64,000 nucleotides of DNA, taken from Naumannella halotolerans (GTDB lineage: Bacteria > Actinomycetota > Actinomycetes > Propionibacteriales > Propionibacteriaceae). Below, one piece after another: positions 4,255-26,197 of the stretch. Each line of letters starts with the position of its first letter. Positions within the stretch are counted from its first letter, which is position 1. Where the stretch lies: contig NZ_SOAW01000001.1 of the NCBI RefSeq assembly GCF_004364645.1, positions 1,178,001-1,242,000 of the forward strand. The letters are read 5' to 3'. A program made the translations under genes and the position numbers. Below the pieces are notes generated by a model. That model searched no databases. It was not told the origin of the DNA and was given only the letters and a program-made list of their open reading frames with translations.

Positions 4255-6942
<2,688 letters not shown>

Positions 6943-20509: not shown

Positions 20510-20670
20510 CTCTAGGACACCGGCGCGAGCGGTTTCCGCCTTCGTCGCCGACGAGTTCGTCGTCCGGCAGGCCCGGGGCCGCGCCCGTACCGGCGATTCC
20601 GCGCGATCGGGAGCGTCCGGGCCCTGCAGGTCTCGAACGGGCGGGCGGTGAATACGGCAAGATGGGCCTC

Positions 20671-22029
20671 ATGAGTGAGTCCGACGTGCCAGACCCCGGC
20701 CAGACCCCGGCCAGCGACAAGCCGACCCGGGCTGCCGCGCCGACACCTGCGTCCTCCCCGGCCAATCTGGCGGCCGCGGCCGATGGCGCGCGGAGCGCCG
20801 ATCCCCGCAGCTTCGGCCGGGTCGATGACGACGGCACCGTCTATGTCCGTACCGACGACGGTGAGCGGGCGGTCGGTCAGGTTCCCGATGCGACACCGGA
20901 GGAGGCGCTGACCTTCTTCACCCGCCGCTTCGATGCGCTCGCCCTGGAGGTGCAGTTGCTGTCGACCCGGGTGGGCAATGGCACCGTCGGTCCCGATGAG
21001 GCACGCAAATCGGCGTCGGCCCTGCGCAAGAGCATCGCCGAGGCAAACGCGGTCGGCGATCTGGCCGCCCTGAGCCGCCGCCTGGAGTCACTGACTCCGG
21101 TCCTGGAGGAAGCCCAGGCCAAGCGGCGCGAGGAGAAGGCCCGCTCGATCGCCGAGGCCAAACAGGCCAAGGAGAAGATGGTCGCCGAGGCCGAGAAGCT
21201 GGCCGCCGGGAACGACTGGCGTGGCGGGGTCAACCGGTTCCGGGCACTGCTGGACGAGTGGCGTGCCCTGCCACGCATCGACAAGGCCACCGACGACGAG
21301 TTGTGGCACCGTTTCTCCTCCGCCCGCAGCAGCTACACCAAGCGCCGCAAGGCCCAGTTCAGCCAGCAGGCGAAGCAGCGTGCGGAGGCGCAGACGGTCA
21401 AGGAACGGATCATCGCCGAGGCCGAGGGACTGGCCACCTCCACCGACTGGGGCCCGACCGCTGGCGCCTTCCGGGAGCTGATGAACCGGTGGAAGGCCGC
21501 CGGACCCGCGCCCCGGGAGGTCGACGACAAGCTCTGGGCACGTTTCCGCGGCATCCAGGATCAGTTCTTCGGTGCCCGCAATGCCGAGCTGGACAAGCAG
21601 AACGAGGAGTTCCTCACCAACCAGAAGGCCAAGGAGGAACTGCTCGCCACCTACGAGCCGAAGGTACGCCCGGAGGAGGACCTGAGCGGATCCCGGGCGG
21701 CCTTCCGGGAGTTCCTGGAGCGCTGGTCGGAGATCGGCAAGGTTCCGCGGGAGGCGATCCGGCCGCTGGACCAGCGAGTGAAGGCGATGGAACGTTCGCT
21801 GAGCTCGGTGGAGCAGGCCGAGTGGAAGCGTACCGACCCCGAGGCGCGGGCCCGGGCCGAGGACACCGCGGCGAAGCTGCGCAACCAGATCGAGGAGCTG
21901 GAGGCGAAGGCGTCGAAGGCCGAGGCCCGTGGGGATGCCTCGGCGGCAAAGAAGGCGCGGGAGTCGGCCGAGACCTACAGGACCTGGCTGGAACAGGCCG
22001 AGAAGGCGGTACGCGACTTCTCCGCCTGA
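20671..22029 (+). CDS. DUF349 domain protein
   Basis: A 452-residue cytosolic, highly charged helical protein with three or more DUF349 repeats. The repeats are marked by paired W residues (AGNDWRGGVNRFRALLDEWR, STDWGPTAGAFRELMNRWK, SGSRAAFREFLERWSEIG). The C-terminal part is coiled-coil-like (LRNQIEELEAKASKAEAR). The function is unsettled in this family. A start at ATG 20671 (MSESDVPDPG) is favoured; ATG 20662 is an alternative, and the frame is open to 20479. Actinobacterial genomes often keep this gene between hisS and rel, as here. Confidence 0.88.
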   Translation: MSESDVPDPGQTPASDKPTRAAAPTPASSPANLAAAADGARSADPRSFGRVDDDGTVYVRTDDGERAVGQVPDATPEEALTFFTRRFDALALEVQLLSTRVGNGTVGPDEARKSASALRKSIAEANAVGDLAALSRRLESLTPVLEEAQAKRREEKARSIAEAKQAKEKMVAEAEKLAAGNDWRGGVNRFRALLDEWRALPRIDKATDDELWHRFSSARSSYTKRRKAQFSQQAKQRAEAQTVKERIIAEAEGLATSTDWGPTAGAFRELMNRWKAAGPAPREVDDKLWARFRGIQDQFFGARNAELDKQNEEFLTNQKAKEELLATYEPKVRPEEDLSGSRAAFREFLERWSEIGKVPREAIRPLDQRVKAMERSLSSVEQAEWKRTDPEARARAEDTAAKLRNQIEELEAKASKAEARGDASAAKKARESAETYRTWLEQAEKAVRDFSA

Positions 22030-22123
22030 GCCGTTGGGGCGATCCACGCCCGGTCGTGTCACCGCCACCGGTCTGTCGACCGCGACACGAGCACGCGACG
22101 AACGCCGTCGACCTCGCGAGTCG

Positions 22124-22216
22124 GCACAAGACAAACGTCACACTCGATCGTCGTTTCCCGCCCCACGCGCCAAGATCCGCGGGTTTCGCTGATCGAGTGT
22201 GACGTTTGTTCTGTGC
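22124..22216. repeat. Hairpin element copy A (26-nt arms, 41-nt centre)
   Basis: The left arm 22124-22149 and right arm 22191-22216 are inverted repeats with a one-to-two base difference (core ACAAACGTCACACTCGATC). The 41-base centre has its own small stem (CGCG-ccaagatc-CGCG). It is similar in length and structure to copies B and C. It occupies most of the gene-free stretch 22030-22384, in which I see no gene. Confidence 0.85.
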
Positions 22217-22384
22217 CCGTCGACGGTCCCGCCCGTCTGGCCCCAGGCGAACTTGCGCCCGTACCGTCAGCCGCAGCCCCGCCCGTCGGGACCAGCCGCA
22301 AACCCCGCCGATGTGCCCGCACGGTGGGTCGATTCATCCCTGAGTCGCTGGTCTTCCGGCCGTTCAGCGGGTTGAATCGCTGGT

Positions 22385-23053
22385 GTGGACCTTGCCAGCT
22401 TGATGGATCAGATCACCGCAGCAGTCGAATCGGTGGCTGGCACCTGGTGGGTCTACCTGGCGATCTTCGGCTTCACCACGATCGACGGGTTCTTCCCGCC
22501 CGTACCCAGTGAGTCCCTGGTGGTGTCGTTGGCGGCATTGTCGATGTCGTCAAGAGAGCCGTCACTGGCCCTGCTGTTCCTGGCCGCCGCCGGTGGCGCG
22601 ATGGCCGGGGACAACATCGCCTACCAGATCGGCCACGTCGTGCATCCCAGCGACGACCGGGGACCGGTCTGGCTCCGCGGGCCACGGATGCAACGTACCT
22701 TCGCCTGGGCTCGCCGGGCGCTGGACCGCCGGGGGGCGATGATGATCCTGGTGGCCCGGCACATCCCGGGGTGCCGGGTGGCGGTGAACATGATGGCCGG
22801 CGCGACCGGGTACCCGCGCCGCCGATTCGTGGCGCTGACGCTCGTCGCGGCCGTCCTCTGGGCGGCCTATGGGATAGGTATCGGCGCCGTGGCCGGGCAC
22901 TGGATCAAGGATGAGCCGCTGCTGGCCGCCGCCCTCGCCGTGGCGGTGGCGATCGTGCTCGGTGTGGTGGTGGACCGGATCTTCGCCGTCGTCCAACGCC
23001 GTCGGGGCCGGCGGCTCCCCCACGAGGCCGAGGAGCCGATCAGCCAGTCCTGA
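22385..23053 (+). CDS. DedA family membrane protein
   Basis: A 222-residue polytopic membrane protein of the SNARE-associated/DedA group, linked to lipid scrambling and membrane-potential homeostasis. It has FFPPVPSESLVVSLAAL, the GDNIAYQIGH segment, and FAWARRALDRRGAMMILVARHIPGCRVAVNMMAG, which matches the conserved FxRHxPxxR region with R and P kept. The start is GTG at 22385; an ATG six codons later is possible. It is flanked on both sides by hairpin-bearing intergenic DNA. Confidence 0.9.
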   Translation: MDLASLMDQITAAVESVAGTWWVYLAIFGFTTIDGFFPPVPSESLVVSLAALSMSSREPSLALLFLAAAGGAMAGDNIAYQIGHVVHPSDDRGPVWLRGPRMQRTFAWARRALDRRGAMMILVARHIPGCRVAVNMMAGATGYPRRRFVALTLVAAVLWAAYGIGIGAVAGHWIKDEPLLAAALAVAVAIVLGVVVDRIFAVVQRRRGRRLPHEAEEPISQS

Positions 23054-23118
23054 AACCGTCGGGACCGGCGAGCTTCGCGGACCACAGACCGGCAGCCGGC
23101 CGACGTTTCCCCACCATG

Positions 23119-23472
23119 CCCCGACGTCAACTAAGACAAACGCACACTCGATCACCCGTCCCCGCCGAAAACGCCCAAATCAGGCGATTCCGCTGATCGA
23201 GTGTGACGCTTGTTTGAATCCCCACCCGCGCGCTGGGACACCCGTGGATGCTCGACCAATTCGCCTACCCAGAGTCGGCAAACCCGTCATCGACGCCCCA
23301 CGAGCGCGACACCCGACGGTCCTGCGCCCCTCACGAGGGAGTCTTCACCTCGCGCCCAAGGACCTCCCGGGCAACAGCTCGATCCCTTAACTCGATCCCT
23401 TAAGACATCACCCGGAACACGTCATAGACACCCTCGACCCGGCGGATCGCCTTCGCCAGCGCATCCCGATGC
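23119..23472. repeat. Direct duplication, copy 1 (contains hairpin B and a rel 3' fragment)
   Basis: This stretch is nearly identical to 23558-23918, starting at CCCCGACGTCA and ending inside a copy of the rel 3' end. It differs by scattered substitutions and by a doubled CTCGATCCCTTA near 23389. The gene-free region 23054-23845 consists of these two copies and an 84-base unique segment (23473-23557) between them. Confidence 0.88.
23133..23215. repeat. Hairpin element copy B
   Basis: Arms at 23133-23153 and 23195-23215 (core CACACTCGATC / GATCGAGTGTG) around a 41-base centre with an inner stem CGCC-caaatca-GGCG. The left arm lacks one T present in copies A and C. Confidence 0.82.
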
Positions 23473-23543
23473 CGCTGGTGGCGCCGGCAGAAGTAGTTAC
23501 CGGGGTTGATCGCCCAGCGGTGCAACCCACAGGCACCAGGCAT
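23400..23543 (-). pseudogene. Duplicated 3' end of rel fused to a short CxxH-CxxH peptide frame
   Basis: The minus strand from ATG 23543 reads 47 residues. The last 22 ([21 protein letters not shown] and one preceding residue) match the C terminus of the rel product at 23846 with one change at the end. The first 25 (MPGACGLHRWAINPGNYFCR and following) come from the unique 84-base segment and contain two CxxH motifs. There is no good ribosome site. Most likely it is a duplication scar, not an expressed gene. Confidence 0.6.
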
Positions 23544-23557
23544 TGCGACAGCAAGGA

Positions 23558-23918
23558 CCCCGACGTCAGCAAGACAAACGTCACACTCGATCGCCCATCC
23601 CCGCCGAGAACGCCCAGATCGGGCGATCTCGCCGATCGAGTGTGACGTTTGTTTCACTCCCCACCCGCGCGCTGGGACACCCGTGGATGCTCGACCACTT
23701 CGCCTACCCACAGTCGGCAAACCCGTCATCGACGCCCCACGAGCGCGACACCCGACGGTCCTGCGCCCCTCACGAGGGAGTCTTCACCTCGCGCCCAAGG
23801 ACCTCCCGGGCAACAGCTCGAACGGTCCCTCCCAGGCGTCACCCGCTAAGACGTCACCCGGAACACGTCATAGACACCCTCGACCCGGCGGATTGCCTTC
23901 GCCAGCGCATCCAGATGC
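23558..23918. repeat. Direct duplication, copy 2 (parent, extends into rel)
   Basis: Second copy of the approximately 355-base repeat. Its last about 70 bases are the true 3' end of the rel gene, so this copy is the likely parent. The start-to-start distance between the copies is about 440 bases. Confidence 0.88.
23571..23654. repeat. Hairpin element copy C
   Basis: Arms at 23571-23592 and 23634-23654 with core ACAAACGTCACACTCGATC; the 41-base centre has an inner stem CGCCC-agatc-GGGCG. It lies downstream of rel and could end its transcript, but copy A is not placed after a minus-strand gene end in the same way. Confidence 0.85.
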
Positions 23919-26197
23919 TTCGGGTCGGAGGTCTCGAAGCTCATCTTGATCTTGCAGACCCGGTCCCGATTGGTGGTCAGGCTGGCCGAGACGATGGACA
24001 CATGCAGATCGGTGACCGAACGGGTGATGTCGGAGAGCAACCCGTGCCGGTCCAAGCCCTCGATCTGCAGGGAGACCAGGAACCTGCTCTGCGCATTCGG
24101 CGCCCAGTGCACATCCACCAGCCGCTCGGGCTGGGCCAGCAGGGAGGCAGCGTTCGTACAGTCCCGGCGATGCACCGACACCCCGGCGCCACGGGTGACG
24201 AAGCCGATGATCGGGTCACCCGGTACCGGCGTGCAGCATTTGGCCAACTTGGTCCACAGGTCGCCGGCGCCGTCCACCTCGACCCCGGACCCCGATCCCG
24301 GTTCGGAGCGGTAGCTGCGATTCGGGGCGGCGAAATCGGTCTCGTCCTCCTCGGTCTCGGCACTCTCCAGACCGACCAGGCGTTGCACCACCGATTGGGC
24401 GCTGACCGTACCCTCGCCGATCGCGGCATACAGCGCGTCGACGTCCCGCAACCGGTGGAAGGTGGCTGCCTCTGCCAGATGGGCCTGGGTCATCAGCCGC
24501 GACAACCCGGCCTTGCGGATCTCCTTGGCCAGCGTCTCCTTGCCCGACTCGACCGCCTCCTCGCGGCGCTCGCGGGTGAACCACTGCCGGATCTTGTTCC
24601 GCGCCCGGGGGCTCTTGACGAACTGCAGCCAGTCCCGGCTGGGGCCGGCGTTCTCGGCCTTGGAGGTGAGGATCTCGACCACGTCGCCGTTGCTCAGCGC
24701 CGACTCCAGCGGCACCAGTCGACCGTTCACCCGGGCACCGATGCAGCGATACCCGACCTCGGTGTGGATGGCGAAGGCGAAGTCGACCGGGGTGGCACCG
24801 GTCGGCAGCGCCTGCACATCACCCTTCGGGGTGAAGGCGTAGACCTCGGTGGTGTTGATCTCGTAGCGCAGGGAGTCGAGGAATTCGCTCGGGTCCGAGG
24901 TCTCGGACTGCCAGTCGGTGAGCGACCGGATCCACGACAGTTCGTCACCGGGCAGGGCCTGGGACTCACCGGCTCTCTTCGCCTCCTTGTACTTCCAGTG
25001 GGCGGCGACACCATACTCGGCCTTGCGGTGCATGTCCCAGGTACGGATCTGCAGCTCGACCGGTTTGCCCCGCGGGCCCAGCACGGTCGTGTGCAGCGAC
25101 TGGTACATGTTGAACTTCGGGACCGCGATGTAGTCCTTGAACCGCCCGGGCAGCGGATTCCAGCGCACATGCATCACACCCAGCGCGGCATAGCAGTCGC
25201 GCGGGTTGTCGACCAGGATCCGCAAGGCGACCAGGTCGTAGATGTCGGAGAAGTCGCGCCCGCGGACCACCATCTTCTGGTAGATCGAGTAGTAGTGCTT
25301 GGGTCGTCCCTGCACGGTCGCCTTGATCTTGGCATCACGCAGGTCGGCATTCACCTGCGCGGTCACCTCCCGCAGGAAGCTCTCCCGCGACGGCGCCCGC
25401 TCGGCCACCAGGTGCACGATCTCGTCATAGATCTTCGGGTGCAGCACCGAGAAGGACAGGTCCTCCAGCTCCCACTTGACGGTGTTCATGCCCAGTCGGT
25501 GGGCCAGCGGGGCGAAGATGTCGAGGGTGTCGCGAGCGATCCGGCGCTGTTTGTCGGGCCGCAGGAACTGCAGGGTACGCATGTTGTGCAACCGGTCGGC
25601 GAGCTTGATCACCAGCACCCGGATGTCCCGCGACATCGCGATGACCATCTTCCGGATCGTCTCGGCCTTCGCCGAGTCGCCGTAGCGGACCTTGTCCAGC
25701 TTGGTCACCCCGTCGACCAGCTGGGCCACCTCGGCACCGAAATCGGCCTCCAGCTGGGCCAGGGTGTAGGAGGTGTCCTCCACCGTGTCGTGCAACAGCG
25801 CTGCACACAGTGTGGGCTCGTTCATGCCCAGCTCGGCGAGGATCGTGGTGACCGCCAGCGGATGGGTGATGTAGGCGTCGCCGCTCTTGCGGGTCTGTCC
25901 GGAGTGGTAGTGCTCGGCGGTACGGTACGCGCGCTCGATCAGCGCCGTGTCGGCCTTCGGGTGGTGGGAGCGGATCACCTTGAACAGCGGGTCCAGCACC
26001 GCCATCTGCGGACTCCGGGAGGCACCGAGGCGGGCCAGTCGCTGACGCATCCGCAACCGTGGTTGTTCCGGACCGGAGCTCAGCCTGCTCTGGGTCGGTT
26101 CCGACAACGGTTCGGCGAGGATGTCGACCGGTCGGGCGTCACGCGTCGGGACGCGCCGCAGTTCCTCCTGACCGCTCTCGCGTCCCAGTTCGGCCAT
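23846..26197 (-). CDS. rel: Bifunctional (p)ppGpp synthase/hydrolase (Rel)
   Basis: Stringent-response enzyme, 783 residues. Domain order: HD hydrolase ([28 protein letters not shown] with the intact HDxxED), synthetase ([31 protein letters not shown]), TGS ([20 protein letters not shown]), a zinc-finger-like helical region with CCTPVPGD and HRRDC, then ACT ([15 protein letters not shown]). Both catalytic halves look active. The start is ATG at 26197, preceded by GAAGGGGG; the frame is open to 26281. Its last codons are duplicated downstream (23400-23472). Confidence 0.96.

Follow-up and report, generated by a model that had tools for sequence, protein, structure and literature searches.

Dispersed hairpin elements of bacteria have been described in several forms, of which the REPINs are the closest to the family reported here. 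In the available part of the REPIN work (Bertels and Rainey 2011, PMC3116915), this lifestyle is linked to a single family of enzymes, the RAYTs, and the elements resemble ours in showing two conserved inverted ends at a fixed spacing, a spacer constrained mainly in its length, an extragenic position, tandem clusters together with their flanks, and an enzyme gene adjoining the repeats. In contrast to the REPINs presented there, whose ends overlap a REP, the arms in our host genome are not self-folding palindromes; furthermore, this genome is without a Y1 transposase, the candidate enzyme is a fusion of an AbiEi-like and a Vsr-like domain, and relatives of the element share a conserved motif at the centre. 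GTAG- and CGTC-REPs (PMC3733652) are also short palindromic repeats in mostly intergenic positions, the CGTC type being without a known transposase, but the CGTC type has loops of 4–5 nt and a terminal tag, while the interior of the host elements spans 43–68 nt; the word Actinobacteria does not occur in the text of that paper. MITEs such as Correia elements, as far as covered by the accessible sections of PMC10969869, share terminal inverted repeats, an intergenic location, and a non-coding character, whereas in our family neither a target duplication nor a parent transposase with the same ends was seen, and the interior of the host elements is nearly random while the ends are intact. With regard to the candidate enzyme, the predicted folds of its two domains resemble the Vsr-like homing endonuclease I-Bth0305I and AbiEi antitoxins; here, in contrast, a single polypeptide combines the two domains, with hairpins framing its gene. 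A search of the literature on REPINs or MITEs in Actinobacteria and on inverted repeats in Propionibacteriaceae revealed no description of this family among the matches listed.

Our analysis started from a window of 64,000 nt of the genome of Naumannella halotolerans (contig NZ_SOAW01000001.1, positions 1,178,001 to 1,242,000), in which a preliminary description had reported three copies of a hairpin element. All three copies were found in the window, and in each of them the 11-nt cores CACACTCGATC and GATCGAGTGTG flank exactly 41 nt. The copies and the duplicated sequences around them are located as follows:

22125–22215: copy 1, arms 22125–22149 and 22191–22215, interior of 41 nt
23130–23219: copy 2, left arm about 23130–23153, right arm 23195–23219, interior of 41 nt
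23568–23658: copy 3, arms 23568–23592 and 23634–23658, interior of 41 nt, between convergent genes
23119–23382: tandem duplication unit 1 (family D1), holding copy 2
23558–23821: tandem duplication unit 2 (family D1), holding copy 3, 92% identity, spacing 439
23401–23479: partial extra copy (79 nt, family D3) of the 3' end of the presumed relA gene, 92% alike to 23847–23925

A search with the 19-nt arm, allowing up to three mismatches, resulted in five occurrences in the window, while none were expected from 100 shuffles. Copy 1 is flanked by two plus-strand genes (20662–22029 and 22385–23053 according to a simple codon-usage gene caller), and one of the convergent genes beside copy 3 is a minus-strand gene with its end at 23846, which we take from its translation to be relA. 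The left arm of copy 2 has lost one nucleotide. Since copies 2 and 3 lie inside one direct duplication of 264 nt (92% alike), they are not independent.

The genome-wide covariance search proposed in the preliminary description revealed further copies, and the REP-like element suggested there was confirmed as a dispersed family of REP-like hairpins. In the host genome (3.47 Mb in six contigs), 75 arm matches with up to three mismatches were found, compared to none in the reversed control, and all of them belonged to short pairs, to a split copy, or to one duplicated arm end. A covariance model of 37 copies recovered 37 complete copies and the split one. While the weakest complete copy reached 62.6 bits on its better strand, the copy split by an insertion sequence scored 24 bits and all further matches 14.6 bits or less; decayed copies were absent among the matches of this model, and the gap in the scores argues against simple neutral decay. 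The split copy appears to be one element with an insertion sequence inside it, at which the assembly breaks; its halves end two contigs:

End of contig C4, locus L064 from about 4430: one half of the split copy
Start of contig C2, locus L054, 1–130: other half of the split copy

The arm comprises 25 nt with sharp limits and reads AAC(A/C)A(G/A)ACAAACGTCACACTCGATC with near-invariance over 75 arms; within the host genome it is the arm sequence itself that is conserved. Outer variants of the left and right arm match within a copy (25 versus 16.1 when shuffled, P = 0.003), and no general complementarity was found in the flanks outside the 25 nt. Two results speak against the association with a RAYT-type transposase that had been put forward for verification: the Y1 transposase family PF01797 gave no matches in the host genome, in a search that was positive in 5 of 14 control genomes, and the folding of four single-arm sequences (0 to −1.2 kcal/mol) was not more stable than that of shuffles.

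None of the 39 complete or half copies was located inside a gene called by the simple caller, which overlooked the nuclease gene of locus L059 (see below). Orientation of the called genes showed no bias at the copies (classes of 11, 10, 9, and 9, with 9 of 39 copies between divergent genes). The nearest called genes were varied, with neither a common theme nor a transposase among the 50 of 59 that were scanned against Pfam, three of which had no Pfam match and one of which encodes a restriction-endonuclease-like protein (L043); the unscanned ones are three genes of L047 and those at L052:10981, L053:4216, L059:4500, L059:5603, L062:3452, and L064:1658. Target-site duplications at the presumed ends of the element did not exceed those of shuffled pairs. 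No longer element with the same arms was identified among the 75 arm matches; the hairpin-framed nuclease genes described below are candidates for an autonomous parent. At two loci (L063, 4084–4163, and L052, 12540–12661), the right arm end is tandemly duplicated directly behind the element. Tandem-repeat arrays are found in loci L037–L064, 53 of 106 within 600 nt of an element, a count without matched control.

Measured between 18-nt arms, the interior has 43–45 nt in 19 copies, 55–56 nt in 16, 49 nt in one, and 68 nt in another. Element lengths step by 12 nt (about 80, 92, and 104 nt), and 12 nt is not equal to one turn of B-DNA. Apart from an off-centre motif, which in the 44-nt class holds 15.1 bits of information versus 3.1 ± 0.4 in shuffles, interiors from different loci were mostly no more similar than shuffled sequences, and their folding was barely more stable than that of dinucleotide shuffles (mean z −0.33 ± 0.16, n = 37). 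The inner stem with compensatory change that had been described from the three window copies turned out not to be general and is weakly supported: in five local pairs, scored in both directions, 3 double changes were counted versus 1.4 expected (P = 0.18), and between copies 2 and 3 there is one pair-keeping double change by the fold of one copy and two by that of the other. By the fold z value and this P value, a reading of the interior as an RNA structure is not supported in the host genome.

Strict searches had pointed to a species-specific family. The exact arm pair was detected in none of 197 other genomes of the bacterial family, none of 393 other genomes of the class, no viral contig (where the pattern with the central motif was also absent), and no entry of a database of genome contigs, in which the exact 18-mer gave three single matches in unrelated taxa. 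This reading was overturned by near-arm matches in G011, a genome of another genus, and by two covariance models, R2 and R3. Both near-arm matches in G011 are full elements, and a looser arm-pair pattern matched the host genome and G011. Model R2 matched 9 of 198 genomes of the family, host included. Model R3 rests on 19 elements, which come from the host and two further genera. Among 391 genomes of the order, 46 had a match at E ≤ 0.01, and 24 of these belong to the family; in three of its genera other than that of the host, a single genome contained several copies, numbers that are lower bounds with ten candidates scored per genome. In 22 genomes outside the family R3 matched once each, and these matches call for caution, although long hairpins with the central motif were seen at 8 of the 10 inspected; altogether, 24 R3 match loci were inspected, with L270, L274, L275, and L277 being unconvincing. 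In genome G133, R3 matched twice (C3:635705–635803 and 636744–636844), about 0.94–1 kb apart, which is the spacing expected with a nuclease gene in between.

The sister species (genome G001) is 75–83% identical to the host in genes of the window region, and its orthologous spacers are without the element at L047, L049, and L051. Over 1.6 Mb of G001 the first model found no element (best score 15.9 bits). Weak R3 matches of 23–28 bits (best 28.3 bits, E 5e-4) were noted there:

L125, 7153–7249: weak R3 match
L109, 10600–10711: weak R3 match
L131, 8459–8757: weak R3 match

"Inside-out" dyads in the same genome are suggestive at most.

Across genera, the pairing of the arms is kept by compensatory change. 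Neither of the outcomes that the preliminary description had named as refuting, a lack of further copies and a lack of covariation, was thus observed. The outer arms are unrelated in sequence and still complementary, with 91.4% of cells paired and 16 of 22 arm pairs showing changes on both sides; the covariation score was 0.469, compared to 0.149 ± 0.019 in shuffles (reached in 0 of 500) and to 0.12 or less when the alignment was slid. The inner arm mostly reads (C)ACTCGAT. The interior measures 44–46 nt in 11 of 18 listed elements (two rows of that list, G011a and G011c, were mis-registered and left unused), and all ten elements from genomes G159, G129, and G138 have a spacing of 45–46 nt. 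Seven of these ten carry GCTGAGCGTG exactly at the centre; the ten had been detected through symmetry or with a model in which the motif stood in 2 of 21 rows, both from one G011 element entered on its two strands. The octamer TGAGCGTG occupies the centre with at most one mismatch in 23 of 32 related loci against a null of 1%, a count that is partly selected, as some loci were chosen by a motif-bearing model and R3 itself favours the central motif. In the host copies, a central TGAGCGTG is present in 28 of 37 within three mismatches, which is not clearly above chance (null 0.64), and GGCGTGTCGC is commoner than chance (23 of 37 within three mismatches, null 25%).

A profile of three DUF559-type proteins was run over the window, 28 host loci, 1.6 Mb of G001, 0.4 Mb of G138, and the related loci. 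The 64-kb window gave no match. Of the seven nuclease genes identified, six have hairpins of this or another family beside or around them, two being closely enclosed:

G017: DUF559-domain gene, frameshifted there, enclosed by two elements about 0.93 kb apart
Host genome, L059: open nuclease gene on the minus strand, end at 4627, inside a cluster of three copies, the nearest about 220 nt past its end and about 700 nt before its assumed start
G138: nuclease gene whose end overlaps a hairpin
G680 (another family of bacteria): nuclease gene with a hairpin directly upstream
G001 #1: nuclease gene enclosed by two hairpins of a different family, with 65 nt between the first and the assumed start and 8 nt between the stop and the second
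G001 #2: nuclease gene with no hairpin beside it
G001 #3: weak homologue (E = 0.038) with one hairpin 75 nt upstream

As a background, an inverted repeat lies within 100 nt of 36 of 1399 called genes in G001 (2.6%), so that two of three nuclease genes correspond to P = 0.002, and of 39 of 349 called genes in G138 (11%), where the single case is not significant alone. Only the host, G138, and G017 genes pass the Pfam cut-off for DUF559 (PF04480), the G680 gene being just under it and the three of G001 matching no Pfam family; these four rest on our own profile, with E values of 3e-7 for G680 and 1.4e-10, 3.1e-8, and 0.038 for G001, the last being #3. The G001 hairpins have loops of 4–25 nt, a geometry unlike that of the host family. 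Contig C1 of G001 (L071–L090, L107–L166) harbors further families of short-loop hairpins, each with distinct arms, with five pairs in 1.6 Mb for arm GTGTCGTCAGTTATCGCC, three for ATTGTTTCCGTAGTTATG, three for GTACCGACGTTTGCGTCA, and two for CACTTTGTGGTCA; beside its nuclease genes we noted one copy of the GTGTCGTCAGTTATCGCC family and two of the GTACCGACGTTTGCGTCA family. In G138 (C1:3140001–3540000), we repeatedly found inverted pairs of another palindrome family, CCCTGAGCCTGTCGAAGGG and its complement. Among the matches listed for the DUF559 literature, hairpins or repeats were absent from titles and abstract openings. Taken together, a nuclease of the AbiEi-like/Vsr-like type, and not a RAYT, appears to be the enzyme associated with the hairpins.

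The host protein matched DUF559 (E 1.1e-9) and REase_MTES_1575. An AlphaFold model based on six sequences had a mean pLDDT of 78.6. In this model, the structural match of residues 1–186 is an AbiEi antitoxin (178 residues aligned, rmsd 5.7, Z 13.4). Residues 189–291 match 3hrl (Z 13.1), I-Bth0305I, which is a homing endonuclease (Z 13.0), and Vsr (Z 11.8, 98 residues); the stretch of about 50–186 can also be aligned to nucleotidyltransferases, with Z values up to 9.6. The N-terminus also matched AbiEi at E 9.7e-4, AbiEi models gave E 6e-4 for the host, 1.9e-5 for G138, and 6.6e-9 for G001 #1, and a profile search of PDB sequences resulted in 3hrl at E 3e-4 and I-Bth0305I at E 0.33. AbiEi binds inverted repeats in its own promoter and thereby autoregulates, according to the available part of PMC7319586, and the DUF559 domain has been described in a Vsr-like PD-(D/E)XK enzyme (PMC12907096, available in part).

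Altogether, the family probably spreads, or is recognised, by means of an enzyme that cuts DNA and whose genes are often located next to such hairpins or between them. We see about even chances that the hairpins are non-autonomous elements of a REPIN/RAYT-like system with a different enzyme, in which arm binding, cutting, and mobility would all depend on this protein. A narrower version is tentative and stays below even chances: a mobile or homing unit in which the AbiEi-Vsr-like fusion would read the lineage-specific arms and act at the conserved central motif. In such a system, the enzyme would bind DNA through its AbiEi-like N-terminus and cut it through a nuclease of the Vsr/I-Bth0305I type (DUF559). 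The N-terminal domains of a dimer may bind both inverted arms, or the folded hairpin, and the nuclease may act at the centre of the element, the interior holding the fixed distance; repair or replication would then copy or move the element. The full unit would be a nuclease gene enclosed by two hairpins, and the dozens of single hairpins would be its offspring. Several observations stand against a REPIN-like system, namely the absence of visible target-site duplications, the Pfam cut-off being passed by only three of the seven nuclease genes, the hairpin-less gene #2 of G001, the non-significance of the G138 case alone, the distances of 220 and 700 nt at L059, a central TGAGCGTG not clearly above chance in the host copies, the short-loop geometry in G001, and the alignment of residues of about 50–186 with nucleotidyltransferases.

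The main rival is a role of the hairpins as operators only, with the AbiEi-like/Vsr protein repressing its own gene via the inverted repeats and the dispersed copies forming a static regulon or decoy sites. Autoregulation by AbiEi (PMC7319586, in the part accessible), the position of the hairpins about 45–75 nt upstream of assumed starts in G017, G680, and G001 #1 and #3, and arms that resemble protein sites, with sharp limits and intact in 37 of 37 complete copies, would all suit this. However, in G017, G138, and G001 #1 a hairpin is also located at the gene's 3' end, the 50 scanned neighbour genes are without a common theme, and the orthologous sites in the sister species, three of which were compared, lack the element, which requires spread; we consider operators alone unlikely. 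A second rival reading is that of ordinary MITE-like elements, moved by an unidentified transposase with the nuclease genes as passengers or chance neighbours, and the small, intergenic, dispersed elements with inverted ends, their absence at compared sister-species sites, and the nuclease relatives without a hairpin agree with this. Given that no longer element with these ends occurred among the 75 arm matches, that a target duplication was not seen, and that hairpins enclose the nuclease gene in both G017 and G001, such elements seem rather unlikely to account for the family.

Stem covariation combined with an apical motif that relatives conserve is a well-known hallmark of RNA, and the 3' side of the stem is U-rich, which would fit a structured RNA or a terminator working in both directions at the transcript level. 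Nevertheless, copies show no orientation bias, with 9 of 39 between divergent genes by the simple caller, interiors fold hardly better than shuffles, and the arm sequence itself is conserved within one genome. Moreover, an Rfam 15 search of the window at the gathering threshold gave no hits, a search of 13 related loci up to E 0.5 gave only a tRNA, no terminator-like matches were found in 21900–23900 of the window, and no preference for gene 3' ends was seen; an RNA function is thus quite improbable. If the REPIN-like system with a nuclease holds, this lifestyle would have been invented with an unrelated enzyme and would have evolved more than once. DUF559 nucleases, still of "unknown function" in Pfam, would gain a concrete substrate, and lineage-specific palindromic repeats of actinobacteria without RAYTs could be explained.

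In three local pairs of copies, the interiors have diverged more than the co-duplicated flanks (26 of 131 versus 13 of 366 sites, P = 4e-8):

Window, 23119–23821: divergent-interior pair (copies 2 and 3)
L039: divergent-interior pair
L048: divergent-interior pair

The arms of the same pairs differ at 15 of 148 sites (P = 0.005), and no difference in indels between interiors and flanks was detected in these pairs (P = 0.25). All nine substitutions within the element between copies 2 and 3 are transitions. Fast mutation inside the hairpin is possible, and elements with intact arms and a fast-changing interior would offer a natural record of mutation in hairpin DNA. Among 12 copy pairs less than 3 kb apart, interior similarity was above the null in nine, and the eight listed of these nine all have the same orientation, which fits tandem duplication better than local transposition.
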